Shown in pieces: positions 4,867-13,896 of a DNA stretch of 64,000 bases. Position numbers and translations under genes: made by a program. Within the stretch, counting starts at the first letter, position 1; every line of letters starts with the position of its first letter. This stretch comes from Hymenobacter busanensis (GTDB lineage Bacteria; Bacteroidota; Bacteroidia; Cytophagales; Hymenobacteraceae), in NCBI RefSeq assembly GCF_008727865.1, contig NZ_VTWU01000006.1:1-64000 (forward strand), in the 5' to 3' direction. The notes under the pieces are model-generated. The model did no database searches. It was not told the origin of the DNA and saw nothing but the letters and a program-made list of their open reading frames with translations.

Positions 4867-4900
4867 CCCGACTGCTCGCCTGCAGTCGGGTTGTTTTTTT
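4867..4900 (+). terminator. Rho-independent terminator of the small secreted protein gene
   Basis: Stem CCCGACTG/CAGTCGGG with an eight-base loop, followed by TTGTTTTTTT. It overlaps the last two bases of the convergent nucleotidyltransferase gene. Confidence 0.92.
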
Positions 4901-5978
4901 ATGCTGTTAGCCCTGTATAGAAAGCCCGCCGGGTTTCTACCAGCAGCGCCTCCACGGCGCCGCGGTCGGGCTCGTCGGGCAAATGGGATGCGCCAAATGC
5001 AGCATCGACCCGCGCTACCAGTTCCTCGGCCTGCGCCACGAGGGCTTCGTACTCGAACTCGCCGCGGCGGATTTGCAGCAGGAAGTCGGGGTTGGGACGG
5101 CGCACGCGCAGCTCGCCGTGAGTAGCAACTTCCTCCGCCATCTGCAGCAGCCGGAACACGTGCAGCATGTTTTTGGCGTCGTAGTTCTTGCCGTGCTGCA
5201 CAGTGTTCTGGTACCGCTCGGCGTTGCGCTTGGCTACCCAATCCCAGTATTCGCGGAACACGCGGCAGGAGGTGCTATACCCGTTGCGGTTGAACGACAG
5301 ATACGCCACCGGCTCCTCTCCTTTCGGCACGGCCGACAGCTGCACGTCCTGGGACGTTTCCGGGTCGCGCACAAGGCCACGGTAACCGAGTTGCCCATCG
5401 GCCGAACGATCTACGAACAAGGCGTACAGGTCCGTGAGGTGCGGCACGTTGGCTAGGCCGCAGTGGGCGGCGGTCAGGCCTTGGCGGGCCAGCCACTGGG
5501 TGGCCGGCACCGAGCCGGCGCCCTGCGTGATGTAGCAGAAATCGAGCACCGACTTACGGGCCGGCGGCTCCGGGTTGTTGATTTTCTTGTTGAGCCCCTT
5601 GGCCTTTTTGATTTGGGCCACGGCATAGTCGGCAAAGGTTTGGCGGCAGAGCTTGGAGAGGAACAGCTCGGGCCGAAACGCGGCGAACAGCGGGTGCTGT
5701 TGCACCACGCAGTCGGCGGGCGAGGCCAGCAGCTCCAGCACGTTGGGGTTGTTTTTCAGGGCCAGCTCCACGAAACGGCGCAGCTCGTAGAACACTTCGT
5801 CGTTGGAGGCGTTGGCTACCTGCGGCACGTAATCGAGGCCCAAGAACTGCGGTTCGGGCAGTACAAATACTCCTTTCAGGTCGGTATCAGAGTGCGCGAG
5901 GTTGGTGCCGTAGGCGCGGCTGCCGCTCACGGCTTCGAACAAAATCAACGGCTGGCGGCGCAGGTCATCAATGGTCAT
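4899..5978 (-). CDS. Predicted nucleotidyltransferase, DNA polymerase beta superfamily (RlaP/COG3541-like), copy 1
   Basis: The 359-residue product carries the polymerase-beta nucleotidyltransferase signature near its N-terminus: GSRAYGTNLAHSDTDLKG, with Gly19-Ser20 and the metal-binding pair Asp31/Asp33. The rest resembles the COG3541 family, which comparative-genomic work calls RNA-ligase-associated polymerase-beta (RlaP) because it occurs with RNA ligases. The likely reaction is nucleotidyl transfer to an RNA end or a protein; the substrate is unknown. Start MTIDDLRR was preferred to an upstream in-frame Met. It lies 35 bases after a second, divergent nucleotidyltransferase and downstream of pnkp on the same strand, which supports a role in RNA repair. 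Confidence 0.82.
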   Translation of the reverse strand: MTIDDLRRQPLILFEAVSGSRAYGTNLAHSDTDLKGVFVLPEPQFLGLDYVPQVANASNDEVFYELRRFVELALKNNPNVLELLASPADCVVQQHPLFAAFRPELFLSKLCRQTFADYAVAQIKKAKGLNKKINNPEPPARKSVLDFCYITQGAGSVPATQWLARQGLTAAHCGLANVPHLTDLYALFVDRSADGQLGYRGLVRDPETSQDVQLSAVPKGEEPVAYLSFNRNGYSTSCRVFREYWDWVAKRNAERYQNTVQHGKNYDAKNMLHVFRLLQMAEEVATHGELRVRRPNPDFLLQIRRGEFEYEALVAQAEELVARVDAAFGASHLPDEPDRGAVEALLVETRRAFYTGLTA

Positions 5979-6013
5979 GGGCGTAACGGCTCGTGGAGTG
6001 CAATGGCCGCGGC

Positions 6014-6775
6014 TCAAGCTACGCCTAACAGTCGGCGAAACAGCGCCGACAGGGCGGGCGTGGGGTCGTGACGACGCGGCGTGGGTAACGTCGTGCGGGC
6101 GTGCTGATTGGCCGCGTACTCGGCCTCGATAAACGCCACCAGGAGTTCGGGGCGAGGCACGGTCGTCTTCTCATTGGCCGAGGCTTTGCACTGCAGCAGC
6201 GCGTCGACGTGCGGCTGCAACGCCGCGGGCAGCAGCACCCGCAACGGCGCAAACGCCATCGGGGGCAGCGTTTGCCGTTCCCGAATCCAGCGGGCGGCAA
6301 GGGCCGAACGCAGGGCGTAGAACAGGCGCTTCAGCCGGACTTCTTCGGGCAGTAAATCTTCCTCAACCCCGCGCCGCACCAAGCCTTGATAGTGGTGAAG
6401 AACCGCCAACGGATTGAAGCACTCCGGCAACTGTGGCTGCACAACTGCGCGAAAGTCCGCCGCCTCGTGGTACACGATGGGCGACTGCAGCCACTCCAGC
6501 AGAGCGGCATTAGAGCCGCGCAGCAGCCGCAGCGTTTTGCGCAGTTCCCAGCCGCTCAAGTCCAGTTCGTCGTCGATAGGAAATACCAGCGTGTCGCGGC
6601 TTTCATCGAGGGCAAGGTACCACTGTGGCGGGTGGCAATACACAAAACGCACGTCGTAGTCGCTGTCGGGCGAAGGAAAGCCCCAGGCCCGGCTGCCCGC
6701 CTCGCAGGCGTACAAAATGCGAATACCGTGGCTGGCTTCGAGGCGAGTGAGGGCGGCGTGAATACGGGCGTGCAT
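6014..6775 (-). CDS. Predicted nucleotidyltransferase, DNA polymerase beta superfamily, copy 2
   Basis: A 253-residue product with the signature GSRAWGFPSPDSDYDVRF (Gly27-Ser28, metal ligands Asp39 and Asp41). The following YCHPPQWYLAL and the ELRKTLRLL region are typical of the shorter COG3541-like proteins. It is clearly homologous to the neighbouring copy only in the catalytic core, so the pair are distinct subfamilies rather than a recent duplication. Start MHARIHAAL is chosen because the upstream 15 residues are non-conserved. It is followed after 35 bases by copy 1, probably in one transcript. Likely function is nucleotidyl transfer linked to RNA repair; the acceptor is unknown. Confidence 0.82.
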   Translation of the reverse strand: MHARIHAALTRLEASHGIRILYACEAGSRAWGFPSPDSDYDVRFVYCHPPQWYLALDESRDTLVFPIDDELDLSGWELRKTLRLLRGSNAALLEWLQSPIVYHEAADFRAVVQPQLPECFNPLAVLHHYQGLVRRGVEEDLLPEEVRLKRLFYALRSALAARWIRERQTLPPMAFAPLRVLLPAALQPHVDALLQCKASANEKTTVPRPELLVAFIEAEYAANQHARTTLPTPRRHDPTPALSALFRRLLGVA

Positions 6776-6961
6776 AAGGCAAACGAAACGCGCGGCAGCC
6801 CAATTGAACCGCCACGGCAATGAAAGTAGAGCAGCTTGCTACAGCAGGGGTTGAACCGTCCGTTTTTCTTTTCCGCACCCCTCTCGTGAATAGAGCGCAC
6901 GCGCAGCCAGAAACAGGCGGCTTCAGCAGACGAGGGCAGTACATAGCAGGTTGTCTTAGCT

Positions 6962-9562
6962 TTACAGCCGCGGGTCCACGGCTTCGCTTTCTAGGGCAAG
7001 CACGCCAAACACGCATTGGTGAACCTCGCGCAGCGGCGCCCCGGCTACAAACCGTTCCAAGCCCTCCACCCCGAGGGTAAACTCCCGCAAGGCCAGGTTG
7101 CGCTTGGCTTTTACGCCTCGCTCGCGCAGGCGCTCCAGGTTGCCGGGCAGCAGATAATCGGGGCCGTAGATAATGCGCAGGTACTCGCGGCCCCGGCACT
7201 TTAAGGCGGGCTGCACCAGCTGCTTTTGCCCCGTGGGAATAAAGTCGTAGGGCTTGATGACCATGCCTTCGCCGCCGGCCGCGGTCAGGTCGAGCCACCA
7301 TTGGGTTGCGGCTTCCACGTCGGCAATATCGCGCAGGTGCACCACGCGGTAGGGCGTGGCCCGCAGCAGCCCGTCGTCGGCGCGGCTGAGGGTGCGCAGG
7401 GTTTCCATGTGCCAGGCGTGGTCTTTGTCGAAATACGTACGGCCTTCGGTGGCGAGGAGGTGAAAGGGAGCTAGGCGCAAATCGGCAAGGCTTTCCACCG
7501 GCCAGCAGTAGCGGCGGTAGGCCTCGGCGTAATGCTGAGCGGCCGTTTGGCGGGCCGTGGTGCGGGCCAGCAGCGCCTCAATGCCGTCGAGGCCGCGGGT
7601 GGCGGCCTGGGCCAGCACGGCGGTGGCCTCGGGCAATGCGGCCGTAGCGGCCGCCGCTACGGCCGCGTATTGGTTCTTGATCAACTCCTGCGCCTTGGCC
7701 GACCACGGCAGCAGTTCGGCGTCGAGGCACAGCCAATCGGTGCCGAACTGCTCCCAGAAGCCGGCCGTGGTCAGGGCCTGTTGCAGACGTTTCAGAAAAG
7801 CCGCTTCCAGCGCGGCATCATTGAAAAAGTTGCGGCCGGTGCGGGTGTAGCATTTGCCCGGCCCCTCGCCTACCACCCCAAAGCGGCGGCGGGCGGCGTC
7901 TTCGTTGCGAGCCAAAACCACCACCACGCGGCTGCCCATGTGCTTTTCTTCGCACACCACCCGCTCCTGGCCCTGACGCCGGAAGTAGTCGAAAGCTTCG
8001 GCGGGGTGCTCCAGCATGTCGGGCAGGGCGCTGGTTTCCGAGGGGCTCATGGTGGGCGGCAGGTATAGCAACCACTTGGGGTTTAGCGCAAACCGGCTCA
8101 TGACTTCCAGCGCGGCCACGGCGTTTTCTTCCCGAATGGTAACGGACGGCAGCAGCCGGGTTTTCACGATTTGCTTGCCGGTCACGTCGCGGATGTCGAG
8201 CAGGTCGTCGTGCGCCTGTTGGGCGGTGAGCGTGGCGGCTTCTTCGGCAACCACGGCCGGGCGGAGCGGGCGCGCCGGCTCGCAATACACCGCGGCGGCG
8301 GGCACCGACACCAACTCCCGCTCGGGATAGCGCAGGGCCGTGAGGCGGCCGCCAAACACGCAGCCGGTGTCGATGTCGATGGTGTTGTTAAGCCATTCGG
8401 GCGTGGGCACGGGTGTGTGGCCGTACACCACCATGGCCCGACCGCGGTATTCCAAGGCCCAGTTGTAGCGCACCGGCAGTCCGAACTCGTCAATCTCGCC
8501 GGTGGTTTCGCCGAATAAGGCAAAGGCTCGCACGGCACCCGAACCACGGCCTTGCATGTCTTCGCGTAACCCGGCGTGGGCCACCACCAGCCGGCCGCCG
8601 TCGAGCACGTAGTGGCTCACGAGGGCGTCGAGGAACTGCCGCACCTGGTTCTTGAACGTGTCCGACTCCAGGGCCAGCTGTGCTAGGGTTTCGGCAAACC
8701 CGTGCTGCTCGCTCACCTGCTTGCCGTTGAGGTGGCGCAGGAGCTTGATGTCGTGGTTGCCGGGTACGCACAGGGCCAGGCCATCCTGCACCATGCGCAT
8801 TACCAGCCGCAATACCTGTGGCGAGGCCGGGCCGCGGTCGACCAGGTCGCCGAGAAACAGCGCCCGGCGCCCGGCGGGGGCCGTCACGCGCACGCCCAGG
8901 TCGCGCACGTCCTGCATAGGTTCGGGCTGCACGGTGTAGCCGAGGTCGGTGAGCAGCTGCACCAGCTCCTGATAGCAGCCGTGCACGTCGCCGATGATGT
9001 CGAAGGGCCCGGCATCGGCTTTGCGGTTGTTGTAGAGCGGGTCGCGCACTACGGCCTGCACCGCGTCGATTTCCTCGGGGCCGTGCAGGTGAAAGATGTG
9101 GCGGAAGCCCTCGGCCTTGAGGGTTTTGAGGCTACGCCGCAGCTGCTGGCGCTGCTGGGGCACCACGTGCCGACCCAGGTGCTGGCGTTCGGCACGGTCG
9201 CGGTTGCGGTCCTCAGCCACGCGGTCGGGCACGTCGAGGATGATGGCCGTCGGCAGCACGTGGTAGTCGCGGGCCAGCTGCACGAGGGTATTGCGGGCCT
9301 CGGGCTGCACGTTAGTAGCATCGACCACCGTGAGCAGCCCGCGCTTGAGGCGCAGCCCCACCAGATAGTGGAGCAGCGCAAAGGCATCGGGCGTCGAGGA
9401 TTGGTCGTTTTCATCGTCGGAAACCAGCGCGCGGCATTGGTCTGACGACACGATTTCGGTGGGCCGAAACAGGCGGCGCGCAAACGTGGACTTGCCCGCA
9501 CCGGACGTGCCAATGAGCAGCACGAGGGAGAGTTCGGGGAGTTTCAGGGAAGTCAAAGGCAT
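6962..9562 (-). CDS. pnkp: Polynucleotide kinase-phosphatase-ligase of bacterial RNA repair
   Basis: The 866-residue protein matches the three-domain Pnkp architecture. The N-terminal kinase (about 1-175) has P-loop GTSGAGKST at 18-26. The central metallophosphatase (about 185-430) has GDVHG at 191-195, GDLVDRG at 238-244, GNHD at 268-271 and VAHAG at 327-331. The C-terminal ligase/adenylyltransferase (about 480-866) has Lys540 in EEKHMGSR and motif EGMVIK at 765-770. In characterised homologues Pnkp phosphorylates the 5'-OH end, removes 2',3'-cyclic phosphate and, with Hen1, seals the RNA. The partner gene hen1 is upstream on the same strand, separated by two other genes. A short palindrome lies just before the start. 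Confidence 0.96.
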   Translation of the reverse strand: MPLTSLKLPELSLVLLIGTSGAGKSTFARRLFRPTEIVSSDQCRALVSDDENDQSSTPDAFALLHYLVGLRLKRGLLTVVDATNVQPEARNTLVQLARDYHVLPTAIILDVPDRVAEDRNRDRAERQHLGRHVVPQQRQQLRRSLKTLKAEGFRHIFHLHGPEEIDAVQAVVRDPLYNNRKADAGPFDIIGDVHGCYQELVQLLTDLGYTVQPEPMQDVRDLGVRVTAPAGRRALFLGDLVDRGPASPQVLRLVMRMVQDGLALCVPGNHDIKLLRHLNGKQVSEQHGFAETLAQLALESDTFKNQVRQFLDALVSHYVLDGGRLVVAHAGLREDMQGRGSGAVRAFALFGETTGEIDEFGLPVRYNWALEYRGRAMVVYGHTPVPTPEWLNNTIDIDTGCVFGGRLTALRYPERELVSVPAAAVYCEPARPLRPAVVAEEAATLTAQQAHDDLLDIRDVTGKQIVKTRLLPSVTIREENAVAALEVMSRFALNPKWLLYLPPTMSPSETSALPDMLEHPAEAFDYFRRQGQERVVCEEKHMGSRVVVVLARNEDAARRRFGVVGEGPGKCYTRTGRNFFNDAALEAAFLKRLQQALTTAGFWEQFGTDWLCLDAELLPWSAKAQELIKNQYAAVAAAATAALPEATAVLAQAATRGLDGIEALLARTTARQTAAQHYAEAYRRYCWPVESLADLRLAPFHLLATEGRTYFDKDHAWHMETLRTLSRADDGLLRATPYRVVHLRDIADVEAATQWWLDLTAAGGEGMVIKPYDFIPTGQKQLVQPALKCRGREYLRIIYGPDYLLPGNLERLRERGVKAKRNLALREFTLGVEGLERFVAGAPLREVHQCVFGVLALESEAVDPRL

Positions 9563-9579
9563 ACAGAAAATAAGCGCGT

Positions 9580-9593
9580 ATACTGAGCAGTAT
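9580..9593. promoter_or_regulatory. Palindrome upstream of pnkp, candidate operator
   Basis: ATACTG-AG-CAGTAT, a perfect six-base inverted repeat with a two-base spacer, 18 bases before the pnkp start codon. Its position suits a repressor or activator site, but six-base arms can arise by chance. Confidence 0.35.
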
Positions 9594-9711
9594 CCTATTA
9601 ATAACGCCCGGTAAAAATGCGCAAACTCCGCTTACTACGGTTTCGCCAGGGCTTCTCACATCATGCTACTACCTACGTGGAAGACGCTCAGGCCACCCAA
9701 ACTGCTCTGCC

Positions 9712-10149
9712 CTACTTCCTGACGAAGGCGACTTGCCCATTCCGGTGCTTTTCGGTCAGTCGGGGCGTAAGCTTGCCCCAATACGTCAGCACCTGGCCTT
9801 TCGTATCCCTGCGCAGGCGCAGCAGCACGTCGCCGGGTTTTAGCTGCTGGTAGCCATTGCCGTCGAGGCCCTGCACGAACATAACCTGGGTTTCCTGGGC
9901 GCTGTCCGTTGCGCGCACCTTCAGCTTCATAAAAGTCTGTTGGCCTTCCACGGCCAGTTCCCCACCCAGGCCGTTGGCCTGCGGCTTGAGCGTGAGGGTC
10001 CACAGCATGGCCATGCTGTAACCAGCCAGGGCCTTCACCGGGGCTTCTTCGTAGGAATAGGCTCCCGCCCAGCTGGGCGGGCTGCTGGCGGCCGGAGCGG
10101 CCACAGCGAGGTTGAACCACAGAAGCGGATGCAGGAGCAGCGTCGTCAT
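9712..10149 (-). CDS. Small secreted protein of unknown function
   Basis: A 145-residue product with an N-terminal signal-peptide-like segment ending near AVAAPAAS. The mature part includes WAGAYSYEE, several beta-strand-like stretches, MKLKVRATD and a C-terminal GDVLLRLRRDTKGQVLTYWGKL. It resembles a small beta-rich family seen in related genomes, possibly DUF5991, but I am not certain. It lies between the OmpA-domain gene and pnkp on the same strand, about 150 bases before pnkp. A link to RNA repair is not evident, since it would be exported. Confidence 0.7.
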   Translation of the reverse strand: MTTLLLHPLLWFNLAVAAPAASSPPSWAGAYSYEEAPVKALAGYSMAMLWTLTLKPQANGLGGELAVEGQQTFMKLKVRATDSAQETQVMFVQGLDGNGYQQLKPGDVLLRLRRDTKGQVLTYWGKLTPRLTEKHRNGQVAFVRK

Positions 10150-10241
10150 AAGCCAGGTAAATGGTGGAAGGCAATAGCTCCAACGAAATTCCGGGGAATA
10201 TGGTCGAGCACTGCCTCGGCAGCCAAATCCACTCAGCCCCC

Positions 10242-12209
10242 CTACTGCACGCCCGTCACCCGGAACTCCACGCGTCGGTTGAGTTGCCGGGTGCTTTCCT
10301 GCTCGTTGCTGGCCCGGGGCTCGGTGCCGCCCAAGCCGAGGCCACTGATGCGCCCTTCGGCAATCCCGCGGCTCACCAAATAGTCTTTCACCGCCGCCAC
10401 ACGCTCTTCGCTGAGCACCACGTTCTTCTGCGGGTCGCCCACGTTGTCGGTGTGGCCGCGCAGTTCAATGGTCATGCCGGGGTTGCGGGTCAGCAGGTTC
10501 ACCAGCTGGTTGAGGGCCGGAAAAGACGAGGGCAACAACACGGCTTGCCCCTGCTCAAACTGCACCTTGTCGAGCTGTTGCGTAGTGCCCACCGCCAACG
10601 GACGGAGCACTATATCCTGCACGTAGGGTCCCGGCAGAGTCAGGTAGGCGGTGTCGGCGGCCAAGTAGCCGGGCAGTTCCAGGTGCGCAGCATACACCTT
10701 CCCCACCTCGGCCGGAAAGGCAAAGGCCGCCTCGCTGGTCAGCGGAACCGTCGTTTCGCTTTTGCCCAAGCTGAGGCGGAACCGAGCCTGCGGCAGCGGT
10801 TGCAGCGTGGCCGCATCGAGCACGCGCCCGCGCCACGTGGCAGCGGTGGGCAGGGCTGCGGCGGCCGGTGGCGGCGGCAGAAATAAATTGCAGCCGGCCA
10901 AGTCGGTGTAGGTGCCGCGCCGCACCCGGGTGGCACGCCGGCGGGCCACGTCTACCTCGTAGAGGGCTTTGGGGCCGGCCAGGTAAAGCCGGCGGCGGCC
11001 GGCGCGGTCGGTTTGCAGCAGCAGGTCGCTGTAGCCGCCGCGGTTAGGCAGGCCTTCGAGCGGCAGCAGGTCGGGAGCGGGTTTCTGGGTGGCTAGGCTC
11101 ACTTTCAATAAGGCGCCGTCGGTGCTGTACACTTGGTAGAGCGAGTCGGCGTCGGTGAGGCAGAAATTGGCGTGGGTACCGGCCTTTGCAAACCCGATGG
11201 CGGGGTAATACGGGGCCTGGCGCACGGGGTCGGCCGACCACACCACCCGCACCGCGTTGGTAGCGGGGCTGACTTTCACCAACAGGTTGGCGTCGCTGGT
11301 AATGAAATACAGGTCACCGCGCTGGTCGGTAGCGGCTGAAATCCAGACGTTTTCGGGACCTTGCGCCGGCAGCTGCCAAGCGGTAAAGTCGCCTTGCCGC
11401 GTGGCCGGATTGTAGCGGTACACCAATTCGGGTGCATCGGTGGGCGCCTTGGTAACCGAATACAGGCAGTTGTCGAAGCCCTTGGCCAGGGCGTACGACT
11501 GAAAGGGCAGCACCCGGGCGTGCACTTTGGGCGGGGCCGCCGGGTCGGCCACCAAGAATTCGTGAATGGTGCGGCAGTCGTCTTCCCACTGGCCGTCGTG
11601 AAAGCGCAGGGCCACAATGCCGTACATTTTGTCGTCGCAGCCTTGCTCGGTGGTGCGGCGGCTGGGCAAGCCGGGGCCGGTCAGGGCCAGGGAGGCCAGC
11701 AGTTGCTGCCCGGCGGCCAGGTTGCGGCCTTCCTGCCGGGCCGGGGCACGGTATTCCAACTGAAACTCGTAGCCGCCGCGCCACAACCGGCGCCCCAGTA
11801 CGTGGGTACGCTCTACGGCACCGTCGGGGGCGAAGGTATAGTCGTAGCGCACTTCCTGGTAGCTACCCGCATCGTGTTGCTCGATGCGGGCCACCCGCGA
11901 GCGGGGCAGCCGCCGCACGGCGCGCCAAACAGAATCGGCCTGCCCCGAAGCCAGCTGGTCGAGGTCTTTCCGGTTGTCGGGCAGGGGCCGAATGCTGAGC
12001 GTGGCTGCTGCCTGGGCCGTTTGCGGGCTGTTGCCGGTGTAAAAGACTACGTCACCCGGCTGCCTGCCTTCGGCCACTTGCCAATTGGGCGGGTACACAA
12101 GTCGGTAGCCCTTGCGCGCGTCGGCATATGGCTGCCCGGCGGTTGGCTGCGCCTGCAGCTTCACCGCCCAGCACACCGCCAGCCACCCCATCAGCAACAC
12201 CTTCATCAT
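10242..12209 (-). CDS. OmpA-domain outer-membrane/periplasmic protein with beta-propeller-like region
   Basis: A 655-residue product with a signal peptide (MMKVLLMGWLAVCWAVKLQA). Next comes a region with a PsbP-like start (YADARKGYRLVYPPNWQ) and a long middle region of repeated WISAATDQRGDLYFIT-type blades. A short carboxypeptidase-regulatory-like domain (WRGRVLDAATLQPLPQARF) precedes a C-terminal OmpA domain. The latter holds the peptidoglycan-binding core IELRGHTDNVG and LSEERVAAVKDYLVSRGI. It probably anchors to peptidoglycan. The gene has its own promoter and lies between hen1 and pnkp; no functional link to RNA repair is apparent. Start is the first of two adjacent ATG codons, just after GGGAGGTGG, a good ribosome binding site. 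Confidence 0.88.
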   Translation of the reverse strand: MMKVLLMGWLAVCWAVKLQAQPTAGQPYADARKGYRLVYPPNWQVAEGRQPGDVVFYTGNSPQTAQAAATLSIRPLPDNRKDLDQLASGQADSVWRAVRRLPRSRVARIEQHDAGSYQEVRYDYTFAPDGAVERTHVLGRRLWRGGYEFQLEYRAPARQEGRNLAAGQQLLASLALTGPGLPSRRTTEQGCDDKMYGIVALRFHDGQWEDDCRTIHEFLVADPAAPPKVHARVLPFQSYALAKGFDNCLYSVTKAPTDAPELVYRYNPATRQGDFTAWQLPAQGPENVWISAATDQRGDLYFITSDANLLVKVSPATNAVRVVWSADPVRQAPYYPAIGFAKAGTHANFCLTDADSLYQVYSTDGALLKVSLATQKPAPDLLPLEGLPNRGGYSDLLLQTDRAGRRRLYLAGPKALYEVDVARRRATRVRRGTYTDLAGCNLFLPPPPAAAALPTAATWRGRVLDAATLQPLPQARFRLSLGKSETTVPLTSEAAFAFPAEVGKVYAAHLELPGYLAADTAYLTLPGPYVQDIVLRPLAVGTTQQLDKVQFEQGQAVLLPSSFPALNQLVNLLTRNPGMTIELRGHTDNVGDPQKNVVLSEERVAAVKDYLVSRGIAEGRISGLGLGGTEPRASNEQESTRQLNRRVEFRVTGVQ

Positions 12210-12229
12210 AGGCCACCTCCCATAGCCGA

Positions 12230-12237
12230 CAAAAGTA
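12230..12237 (-). promoter_or_regulatory. -7 element of the OmpA-domain gene
   Basis: TACTTTTG on the minus strand matches TAnnTTTG, 20 bases before the first start codon and 70 bases after the hen1 stop. It suggests the OmpA-domain gene is expressed independently of hen1. Confidence 0.7.
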
Positions 12238-12307
12238 CGGAAGCCGGCCGCCATTTGCCTTCGGAGGCGGTATTTGCAGCGCTGCCCCACACGGTAGCCG
12301 GCTCCCG

Positions 12308-13729
12308 TCAAGCTTGCTCAAATACCGCCAGCTGCGAAGGTGCCCCGACTTCCGCCGCTTCCGGCCCCAGCGGCAGAACATGCACCACGTAACCATGCCG
12401 GGCGGCCACGCCGGCGGCCCACTCGGCAAACTGCGCCCGCGTCCACTCGAAGCGGTGGTCGGCGTGCCGAAACTCGCCGGCAGATAAGGTTTCGTAGCGC
12501 TGGTTGTAGTCGGCGTTGGGCGTGGTAACCAGCACGGCACCGGGCCGGGCACGGGCAAACACCACCTGCTCGAACGCGGCCAGCCGGTTTTCGTCCAAGT
12601 GCTCAATGACTTCCACCACGGCGGCCGCGTCGTATCCGGCCAGGCGCGGGTCGTGGTAGAGCAGGGAGCCTTGCGCCAGAGTCAGCCGCTCGCGCTGCCG
12701 CGGGGGCATTTCGGCCACGTGCAGCCGCTCGTGCGCCCGCTGCAGCTCCCGGTACGACACGTCGATGGCCAGAATGTGCTCCACATGCGGCATCTTGAGC
12801 AGGCGCCGCGCCAACTTGCCTTCGCCGCAGCCCAAATCCAGCACGCGCTTGGCCCCGAGGCGCCGGATTTCCTCGGCCACCCGGTCGAGGCGCAGGTCGT
12901 GCAGGTTTTGCTTCTCAGCCGGCGCGGCCGCCTCGGCGGAAACTTCTACCGTAGCCAAAGCCGCTTCCGGCTCGTCGTCGGCTGGGGTTTCGTCGGCGTC
13001 CAGGAGGCGCTCCAGCGTCGGATTTACGTACTGCGCCAGGTTGCGGAGGTAGCGGCGGGTGATGAATTCCCGGTCGGGGTGCTGGGGCAGCCAGTCGGCA
13101 CCGCGGTGCAGCAGCTTCTCGGCTTCCGAGGCATTTACCCAGTAGTGCTTGTCGTTGTCGAGCACCGGAATAAGCACGTAGAGGTGGCTCAGCAACTCGC
13201 GCAGACGCCGAGCCGGGTGGCGCAAGCGCAGGGTGAAGTAGCGGCTGTTGCCCCAGGCGGGCACGGTCGGGTCGAGCGGGTGGGCCTCGGTTTCTACCTC
13301 ATAGCCTAGCGGCGCAAACAGCCGCTGCAGCTGCTCGGCGGTGGCGGCGGGCACCACGGCCACGGTGGCTTCCAAGGGCAGCAGCGTGTCGGGCAGTTCG
13401 GGACGGTCCTTGCAGGTACCGTTCATGGCTGTGTTGAAGGCCTTCGCCAGGGCTACGCTCAGAAACGACGACGCCACGTAGGGCCGGTCGTTCACGTACT
13501 GCTCCAGCGCAAAACCCTCCCCGGCCGGGCCGCGGTGGTTGCGCACCAGCGCCACCGGGTCGATGTCGAGCAACAGGGCGACGGTGCACCGCTCGGCCGA
13601 GGCTTCGGGGTAGAAAATGTGGGCCTGACCGGCGGCTACCTCCAGGGTTTGGAGGCGCGCCGGATTCTTGTGCAACAAGTAGCCCAGGTCGGTGGCGGGC
13701 TGGTGGGTAGTGGTAATCGTCAGGAGCAT
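12308..13729 (-). CDS. hen1: RNA 3'-terminal ribose 2'-O-methyltransferase
   Basis: A 473-residue bacterial Hen1. The N-terminal domain (about 1-240, beginning MLLTITTTHQPATDLGYLLH) is the part that activates Pnkp ligase in characterised homologues. After an acidic linker (about 243-272) comes the SAM-dependent methyltransferase. It has DLGCGEG at 298-304, the metal-binding EVIEH (Glu373, Glu376, His377) and a later His in ADHRFEWT. It adds a 2'-O-methyl group to the 3' end at the break so that repaired RNA resists renewed cleavage. Start MLLTIT is the conserved family start; 25 upstream in-frame residues were dropped. No clear TAnnTTTG precedes it, though TATCTTGG lies 43 bases upstream. Confidence 0.96.
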   Translation of the reverse strand: MLLTITTTHQPATDLGYLLHKNPARLQTLEVAAGQAHIFYPEASAERCTVALLLDIDPVALVRNHRGPAGEGFALEQYVNDRPYVASSFLSVALAKAFNTAMNGTCKDRPELPDTLLPLEATVAVVPAATAEQLQRLFAPLGYEVETEAHPLDPTVPAWGNSRYFTLRLRHPARRLRELLSHLYVLIPVLDNDKHYWVNASEAEKLLHRGADWLPQHPDREFITRRYLRNLAQYVNPTLERLLDADETPADDEPEAALATVEVSAEAAAPAEKQNLHDLRLDRVAEEIRRLGAKRVLDLGCGEGKLARRLLKMPHVEHILAIDVSYRELQRAHERLHVAEMPPRQRERLTLAQGSLLYHDPRLAGYDAAAVVEVIEHLDENRLAAFEQVVFARARPGAVLVTTPNADYNQRYETLSAGEFRHADHRFEWTRAQFAEWAAGVAARHGYVVHVLPLGPEAAEVGAPSQLAVFEQA

Positions 13730-13896
13730 CGGGGAGAAACGCGGAATAGCACACAACCCAGCAGGGCTAGGCGCAGTGGACCAAGATACGAGGCTGCTGG
13801 GCAAGCATTATGTCGCCCTGAAACCGGCCCAGCCTATGCCGAGCGAGCAAACCGGCCTTTTCGCCTGGGAGTTGCGGCGGTGTGGCGCCTCGGCTG

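Follow-up and report, generated by a model that had tools for sequence, protein, structure and literature searches.

The RNA-repair system built from Pnkp and Hen1 combines end healing, 2'-O-methylation and sealing, and its cellular RNA substrate was then unknown according to the part of the published description considered here (PMC4411300). Nucleotidyltransferases (NTs) of the RlaP family occur across several repair systems (PMC6514570, in the portion covered here), and the excerpt of PMC7824862 used here predicts that they restore nucleotides lost from a break before ligation; the same excerpt describes RtcB as joining 3'-phosphate or cyclic-phosphate ends. In the literature we searched, the activity of RlaP was predicted and no assay was found. 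Here we analyzed a six-gene island in the first 64,000 nucleotides of contig NZ_VTWU01000006.1 of Hymenobacter busanensis (assembly GCF_008727865.1; this whole stretch is called the window below), in which hen1 and pnkp stand together with two RlaP-type genes, NT-A and NT-B. The Hen1-Pnkp system and the link between RlaP and repair are already known. What is added here is a recurrent module of two subfamilies, NT-A and NT-B, that is free of any one ligase; it was not found in the literature searched, and Burroughs and Aravind 2016 lay outside that search.

Our analyses moderately favor a reading in which the known Hen1-Pnkp system is accompanied by a two-enzyme NT-A/NT-B module with a general role in RNA repair. 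The six genes share the minus strand of the window and are transcribed in the order hen1, an OmpA-domain gene, a DUF5991 gene, pnkp, NT-A and NT-B. Four of them were identified by sequence as follows, with coordinates of open reading frames (ORFs) where a later start is likely:

12308..13804 (ORF; likely start 13729), minus strand: hen1, with matches to TIGR04074, PF12623 and methyltransferase domains
6962..9562, minus strand: pnkp, encoding a single protein that joins 5' kinase, metallophosphatase and RNA ligase, with matches to TIGR04075, PF16542, PF13671 and PF00149
6014..6820 (ORF; likely start 6775), minus strand: NT-A, a full-length RlaP-family nucleotidyltransferase (PF10127)
4899..6017 (ORF; likely start 5978, MTIDDL), minus strand: NT-B, a second, diverged RlaP-type nucleotidyltransferase (PF10127 N-terminal core, phrog_388)

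Hen1 scored 675.6 bits against TIGR04074 (cut-off 340, positions 1-461 of 462) and 360.7 bits against PF12623 (Hen1_L), and it aligned domain by domain with the solved chains 4dqz and 3jwi. Pnkp reached 1386.2 bits against TIGR04075 (cut-off 750, positions 2-851 of 851) and carried the Pfam domains AAA_33 (kinase, PF13671), Metallophos (PF00149) and PNKP_ligase (PF16542); in its alignment with the solved Pnkp ligase 4drf, KHMGSR was preserved. Both proteins exceeded the NCBI equivalog cut-offs by a wide margin, which bears out the presence of hen1 and pnkp proposed in a first-pass annotation of this DNA, and by these profile matches the locus is a Hen1-Pnkp RNA-repair island. The profile scores, together with the conservation of the NT pair described below, argue that the island is not a product of chance. 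As in the published system, both proteins are full length and encoded on the same strand, and their chemistry would be that given in the part of PMC4411300 considered here. The locus differs in having two NTs by pnkp and two apparently unrelated genes between hen1 and pnkp, whereas the complex in that part of PMC4411300 consists of Pnkp and Hen1 only. In a sample of 148 genomes of the order, 32 carried Pnkp, counted only over its cut-off, and 31 of these also carried Hen1 (38 Hen1 genomes were listed and 36 used, the fragments in G014 and G065 being dropped).

The plasmid NZ_CP010055.1 of Hymenobacter sp. DG25B (L267, L269) was typed as mobilizable. Its copies of hen1, pnkp, NT-A and NT-B span the start of the record, with hen1 and part of pnkp fragmented, and its Pnkp is 91% identical to that of the window over residues 320-866. 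On a Deinococcus taeanensis plasmid (L303), an AAA ATPase, Thg1, a DUF705 protein, Hen1 and two nucleotidyltransferases occur together, with no full pnkp in the stretch; this gene set is possibly a split version of the Hen1-Pnkp system. Membership of the window genes in the PADLOC mads system was rejected, Hen1 and Pnkp giving partial matches only (42.6 and 15.3 bits).

The first-pass annotation had also described two unlike nucleotidyltransferases adjoining pnkp on one strand and 35 bases apart, and our measurements agree. Against PF10127 (RlaP, Pfam cut-off 23 bits), NT-A scored 264.4 bits over positions 1-248 of 249 and NT-B 87.8 bits over its N-terminal core only (positions 20-139); no other PF10127 matches were reported across the 4.89 Mb genome. 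NT-B additionally matched phrog_388 (positions 38-332 of 351), and its C-terminal half is its own and mostly helical. The distance from the stop of NT-A to the likely start of NT-B (5978) is about 35 bases, and this value is the real one because most homologues begin at codons later than the starts of the longest ORFs. When the two family profiles were compared, the alignment was confined to about 110 columns within the nucleotidyltransferase core (98.3% probability), and a tree of 45 hand-picked sequences, in which long branches were flagged, split the A side from the B side with support of 100/99. The PF10127 matches and the prediction in the excerpt of PMC7824862 both sustain the earlier statement that RlaP-like enzymes are tied to RNA ligases by context. 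Both NTs resemble the RlaP family in exceeding its cut-off and in their association with RNA ligases; they differ in forming a recurring unit of two subfamilies, which was not found in the text of PMC7824862 examined. Fusion of NT-A and NT-B in one protein was considered and rejected: none occurred among the ORFs of loci L001-L289, where the double matches represented one NT-B with an insert.

Both NTs retain the carboxylate triad of polymerase beta and are apparently intact enzymes. D54, D56 and D87 of NT-A were kept in 60 of 60 alignment rows; in NT-B, D44 and D46 were kept in 89 of 90 rows and D73 in 88 of 90, the third carboxylate (D87 or D73) being assigned from the NT-A/NT-B profile alignment. 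NT-B further displays K144, K145, R268, D280, K282, N283, H286 and R289 as invariant in 90 of 90 rows, and this conserved, basic and motif-rich part may hold RNA. Structures predicted with AlphaFold were confident, with a pLDDT of 93.9 for NT-B and 96.1 for NT-A. The top solved folds for NT-A were Hailong HalB and aminoglycoside nucleotidyltransferases (E from 1e-5, TM about 0.4), and one of the HalB structures is titled as being in complex with oligodeoxyadenylate. Weak fold matches of NT-B included an MNT antitoxin. Searches of PDB with the single NT-A and NT-B sequences gave no match, and searches with the NT profiles gave five weak ones, including one putative nucleotidyltransferase at E 0.55.

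These folds bear on an alternative in which one or both NTs would nucleotidylate a protein, like MNT antitoxins acting on HEPN toxins, or would make a nucleotide signal, like HalB, and so control repair or a linked toxin. The structures matched by NT-A and the MNT antitoxin among the NT-B matches are in line with it, as are WYL-type regulators in 10 of the best 80 named loci (defined below) and HEPN-like and DUF5677 matches beside NT-A (L030, L125), both below the Pfam cut-off. HalB, however, although the top solved-fold match of NT-A (E 1e-5), shares a TM of only about 0.4 and 14% identity with it, and neither NT matched a PADLOC model. Furthermore, the neighbor clusters of the fetched loci offered no constant partner protein as a target, and RNA ligation was the recurring theme among neighbors, so that we regard this alternative as decidedly improbable. 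Hailong membership as such was rejected, in view of that TM and since PADLOC (2023) gave no match for NT-A or NT-B, with the presence of a Hailong model in that version not checked.

In one viral NT-B (L191:754-2844), an intein-like insert with a LAGLIDADG match interrupts the conserved YDxKNMMH motif. Inteins tend toward essential sites, and the position of the insert hints at the importance of this motif.

Judged by their sequences, NT-A and NT-B represent two ancient subfamilies, and members of both repeatedly turn up together. Among the 148 genomes of the order, 37 carried NT-A, 52 NT-B and 30 both (Fisher p 3e-11), and among 296 genomes of the phylum, searched with limits of 1e-10 for the NTs and 1e-100 for Pnkp, the numbers were 21, 19 and 17 (p 6e-22). 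Of the genomes having both, 19 of the 30 from the order and 15 of the 17 from the phylum had the two genes on the same strand and no more than 6 kb apart. For the order sample, 60 genomes matched PF10127 and 59 were used, G017 being dropped with 48 positions only; weak second matches (G024, G040, G051, G056) and two short B-side pieces (G072) were left uncounted, G082 and G101 were counted though fragmentary, and NT-A was told apart from NT-B by reading of model coverage and score. In the named loci, which are the best 80 of 583 confirmed NT-B loci, 53 had NT-A upstream of NT-B, on its strand and at most 2 kb away, and none had it downstream on that strand, with distances taken from the most upstream start codon and hence possibly too small; 32 of the 80 are from Hymenobacter and several share contigs with unnamed loci, so these sets are non-independent. 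The distances of NT-A and NT-B were correlated with r 0.88 over 60 non-redundant loci (Mantel), to which shared ancestry contributes; the 60 were thinned by NT-B distance from 88 loci, including five viral ones, in which both genes had to lie in one locus and adjacency was not required. NT-A and NT-B are apparently co-evolving. In addition, plasmids of Deinococcus gobiensis, D. ficus, D. taeanensis and Asticcacaulis carry one B-side and one A-side protein near hen1, in reverse order (L303-L306 come from NT matches).

Some pairs have other surroundings. In two flavobacterial loci (L110:9162-9998, L106:7446-10001), a SIR2-domain protein and a helicase sit between NT-A and NT-B. In Proteus mirabilis, a guaA-like gene immediately precedes the pair (L268:7247-9062), and similar pairs occupy the ends of several contigs from the viral collection, L152 among them.

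The statement that these nucleotidyltransferases go with RNA repair held in the order sample, where 30 of the 32 Pnkp genomes carried at least one PF10127 gene and 28 carried NT-B, and it also held for the neighboring ligase and RtcB genes. In relatives, the neighbors of the NTs included RtcB, Ro60/TROVE, Thg1, WYL, Rnl-type ligases and RF-1-domain proteins, the last of which are perhaps prfH. RtcB was present in 11 of the best 80 named NT-B loci and in 7 of 14 fetched genomes with both NTs. Of the 79 order genomes with RtcB, 50 were among the 59 NT genomes and 29 among the 89 others. Two loci (L271, L277) hold a Pnkp1-Rnl-Hen1-like set of HAD_PNKP and PNKP_ligase proteins and a Hen1-like ORF, all at most about 10 kb from the NT pair. 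The Hen1-like ORF was recognized by a Hen1_N match in L271 and by a match to our own Hen1 model in L277. Both loci share these components with the Pnkp1-Rnl-Hen1 system of Capnocytophaga described in the part of PMC4411300 considered here; the window differs from that system, its Pnkp being fused with a metallophosphatase and not of the HAD type. A T4-type RNA ligase and a HAD-type PNKP occur near the NTs in two further loci (L274, L282), with NT-A in two pieces in L282. Thg1 adds nucleotides at 5' ends, and its position beside NT-B or near hen1 in four loci (L018, L021, L091, L303) would fit end rebuilding.

The NT pair is thus not bound to Pnkp-Hen1, and stands also by RtcB, Pnkp1-Rnl-Hen1-like and T4-type ligase genes. 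Pnkp was present in 3 of the 17 phylum genomes with both NTs. Outside Bacteroidota, a plasmid search gave 13 Hen1-Pnkp loci (L290-L302, a non-random set drawn from 16 records in which Pnkp coverage was 80% or more, L300 being a chromosome-sized record), and the pair was within the fetched stretch in three of them (L291, L292, L296). RtcB systems with TROVE, WYL and RF-1-domain proteins have in common with the window that such loci contain the NT-A/NT-B pair; they differ in the ligase and in the ends it needs, and the RtcB genes of the window's genome lie more than 200 kb off or on another contig.

This spread of surroundings is the ground for the main rival, in which the pair would repair RNA independently of a ligase. 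One such task would be to restore the CCA terminus at the 3' acceptor end of damaged tRNA, where NT-A and NT-B would take turns and supply different nucleotides. CCA addition is divided between two enzymes in some bacteria. The same pair stands by Pnkp-Hen1, RtcB, Pnkp1-Rnl-Hen1-like and T4-type ligase sets of opposite end chemistry. In 17 RtcB loci, moreover, NT-A and NT-B tracked each other (r 0.90) more closely than either tracked RtcB (r 0.50 and 0.52), and the 17 kb around the Proteus mirabilis pair, behind its guaA-like gene, contained no Pnkp, Hen1 or RtcB model match. Pfam and published work nonetheless tie RlaP to ligases, and we consider a ligase-independent role unlikely.

Several features of the ligase-associated loci were recorded besides. 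Between a Ro60/TROVE gene and an RtcB or hen1 gene, NT-pair loci contain tRNA genes: a run of five at L125:1494-1903, and others at L130:7455-7527 and L105:16848-16923. RtcB is matched three times in the genome from which the window comes: twice in tandem (G000:C8:219077-221978), on the same contig and about 205 kb away, and once at G000:C10:145138. Proteins of about 230 residues that belong to one recurrent family are encoded close to the NT pair in three loci of the Rnl type (L271:10828-11526, L277:5472-6158, and L274 from 2832); two members were searched and gave no Pfam match.

Under the reading of a general repair module, a ribotoxin or anticodon nuclease would cut an RNA, probably a tRNA, from which further nucleotides may be lost. 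Pnkp would then strip the 3' phosphate and phosphorylate the 5' end, NT-A and NT-B together would put the missing nucleotides on the 3'-OH end, the two differing in the substrate or nucleotide they prefer, and Hen1 would methylate the terminal 2'-OH before Pnkp seals the break. The steps given to Pnkp and Hen1 follow the published biochemistry of the family; we infer nucleotide addition by the NTs, their division of labor and the RNA substrate. A more specific version, which we put forward tentatively and hold to be possible though rather doubtful, is that NT-A and NT-B form one template-free RNA-end polymerase of two specificities, probably a heteromer, providing a rebuilding part independent of the sealing route and used by at least four ligase systems. 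If true, RNA rebuilding by the pair would be a general function and not an adjunct to Hen1-Pnkp. A pair that recurs, diverges together and keeps company with ligases of opposite end chemistry raises the questions of what is added, at which RNA end and why two enzymes are needed, and the answer would show whether bacteria rebuild, beyond rejoining, toxin-cut RNA.

Several observations weigh against the reading of a general repair module. First, the tie to Pnkp is loose: an NT was missing from 2 of the 32 order genomes with Pnkp and from 2 of 5 phylum-sample genomes with Pnkp at the limit used, an NT lay within 20 kb of pnkp in only 12 of the 30 order Pnkp genomes that carry one, and the pair was outside the fetched stretch in 10 of the 13 Hen1-Pnkp loci from the plasmid search. 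In the remaining 18 NT-carrying genomes, the NT was far away on the same contig in three and on other contigs in 15, some perhaps through assembly breaks. Second, the pair is not invariable, as NT-B occurred without NT-A in 22 of the 52 order genomes with NT-B, no NT-A was seen in 23 of the best 80 named loci (some contigs being short), and NT-A accompanied NT-B in 16 of 80 viral loci, partially so in two; the Fisher and Mantel tests, for their part, ignore shared ancestry. The fold search with NT-B returned no match at E 0.001 or better. Third, RtcB is common in the order and also accompanies Pnkp (28 of the 32 genomes), and the co-occurrences may simply reflect larger genomes with more genes of every kind. 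Finally, RtcB takes 3'-phosphate or cyclic-phosphate ends, for which an NT-extended 3'-OH is unsuited, yet the pair often sits with RtcB; if it serves both RtcB and Pnkp, its site of action may be another part of the RNA, for instance the acceptor end, or it may act before the ends are set. The grouping of the NTs with Hen1-Pnkp in the first-pass annotation accordingly stands for co-occurrence (30 of 32 genomes), and a dedicated link does not follow from the 12 of 30 genomes with linkage and the 3 of 17 phylum pairs with Pnkp.

The same low linkage (12 of 30 genomes, with 10 of 13 plasmid loci having no nearby pair) can be read in another way, namely that the NTs are passengers of a defense-rich region and their proximity to hen1-pnkp is accidental. 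Genes apparently unrelated to repair, of the OmpA-domain and DUF5991 types, do lie inside the same island. However, A-side and B-side proteins recur with hen1 in Bacteroidota, Deinococcus and Asticcacaulis in differing gene orders, and NT-B was found in 28 of the 32 order Pnkp genomes even when unlinked, which makes a passenger role very improbable. Both unrelated genes were located between hen1 and pnkp, in agreement with the earlier remark that an OmpA-domain gene and a small exported-protein gene split the island:

10242..12311 (likely start 12209), minus strand: OmpA-domain protein (PF00691), probably exported, between hen1 and pnkp
9712..10149, minus strand: small DUF5991 protein (PF19453, 76.4 bits), probably exported, between the OmpA gene and pnkp

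With these two genes, hen1 and pnkp are spaced 2745 bases apart in the window. In Hymenobacter and same-family loci this gap ranged from 101 to 8160 bases, and elsewhere, in the loci measured, from -143 to 229 bases except in L022 (5269); gaps were taken from the most upstream start codon and can be underestimates. Strong OmpA homologues were found in four fetched Hymenobacter-type loci (L014, L065, L067, L076); the one in L014 separates hen1 from pnkp, and the one in L065 precedes hen1. For DUF5991, a search of the ORFs of loci L001-L289 at E 1e-8 gave a single homologue (L014). Given the small gap outside the Hymenobacter family and the few homologues, we rejected both genes as parts of the system; they are probably lineage-specific intruders or cargo in Hymenobacter and its kin.

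Rfam scans yielded tRNA only in the first 20 kb of the window, and tRNA and a DUF805b element only in seven relatives. The promoter scan was near its shuffled background (2 vs 1.1), and the terminator scan gave 17 against 9.9 in the shuffled background. As for the flanks, one side of the island is occupied by a ClpP-like protein, assigned by reading. On the other, a NUDIX-like gene was no more than about 12 kb from hen1 in four of six island-carrying relatives of the same family (G087, G101, G115, G128) and not within that distance in G030 and G060, a conservation which suggests a long-held chromosomal place of the island.

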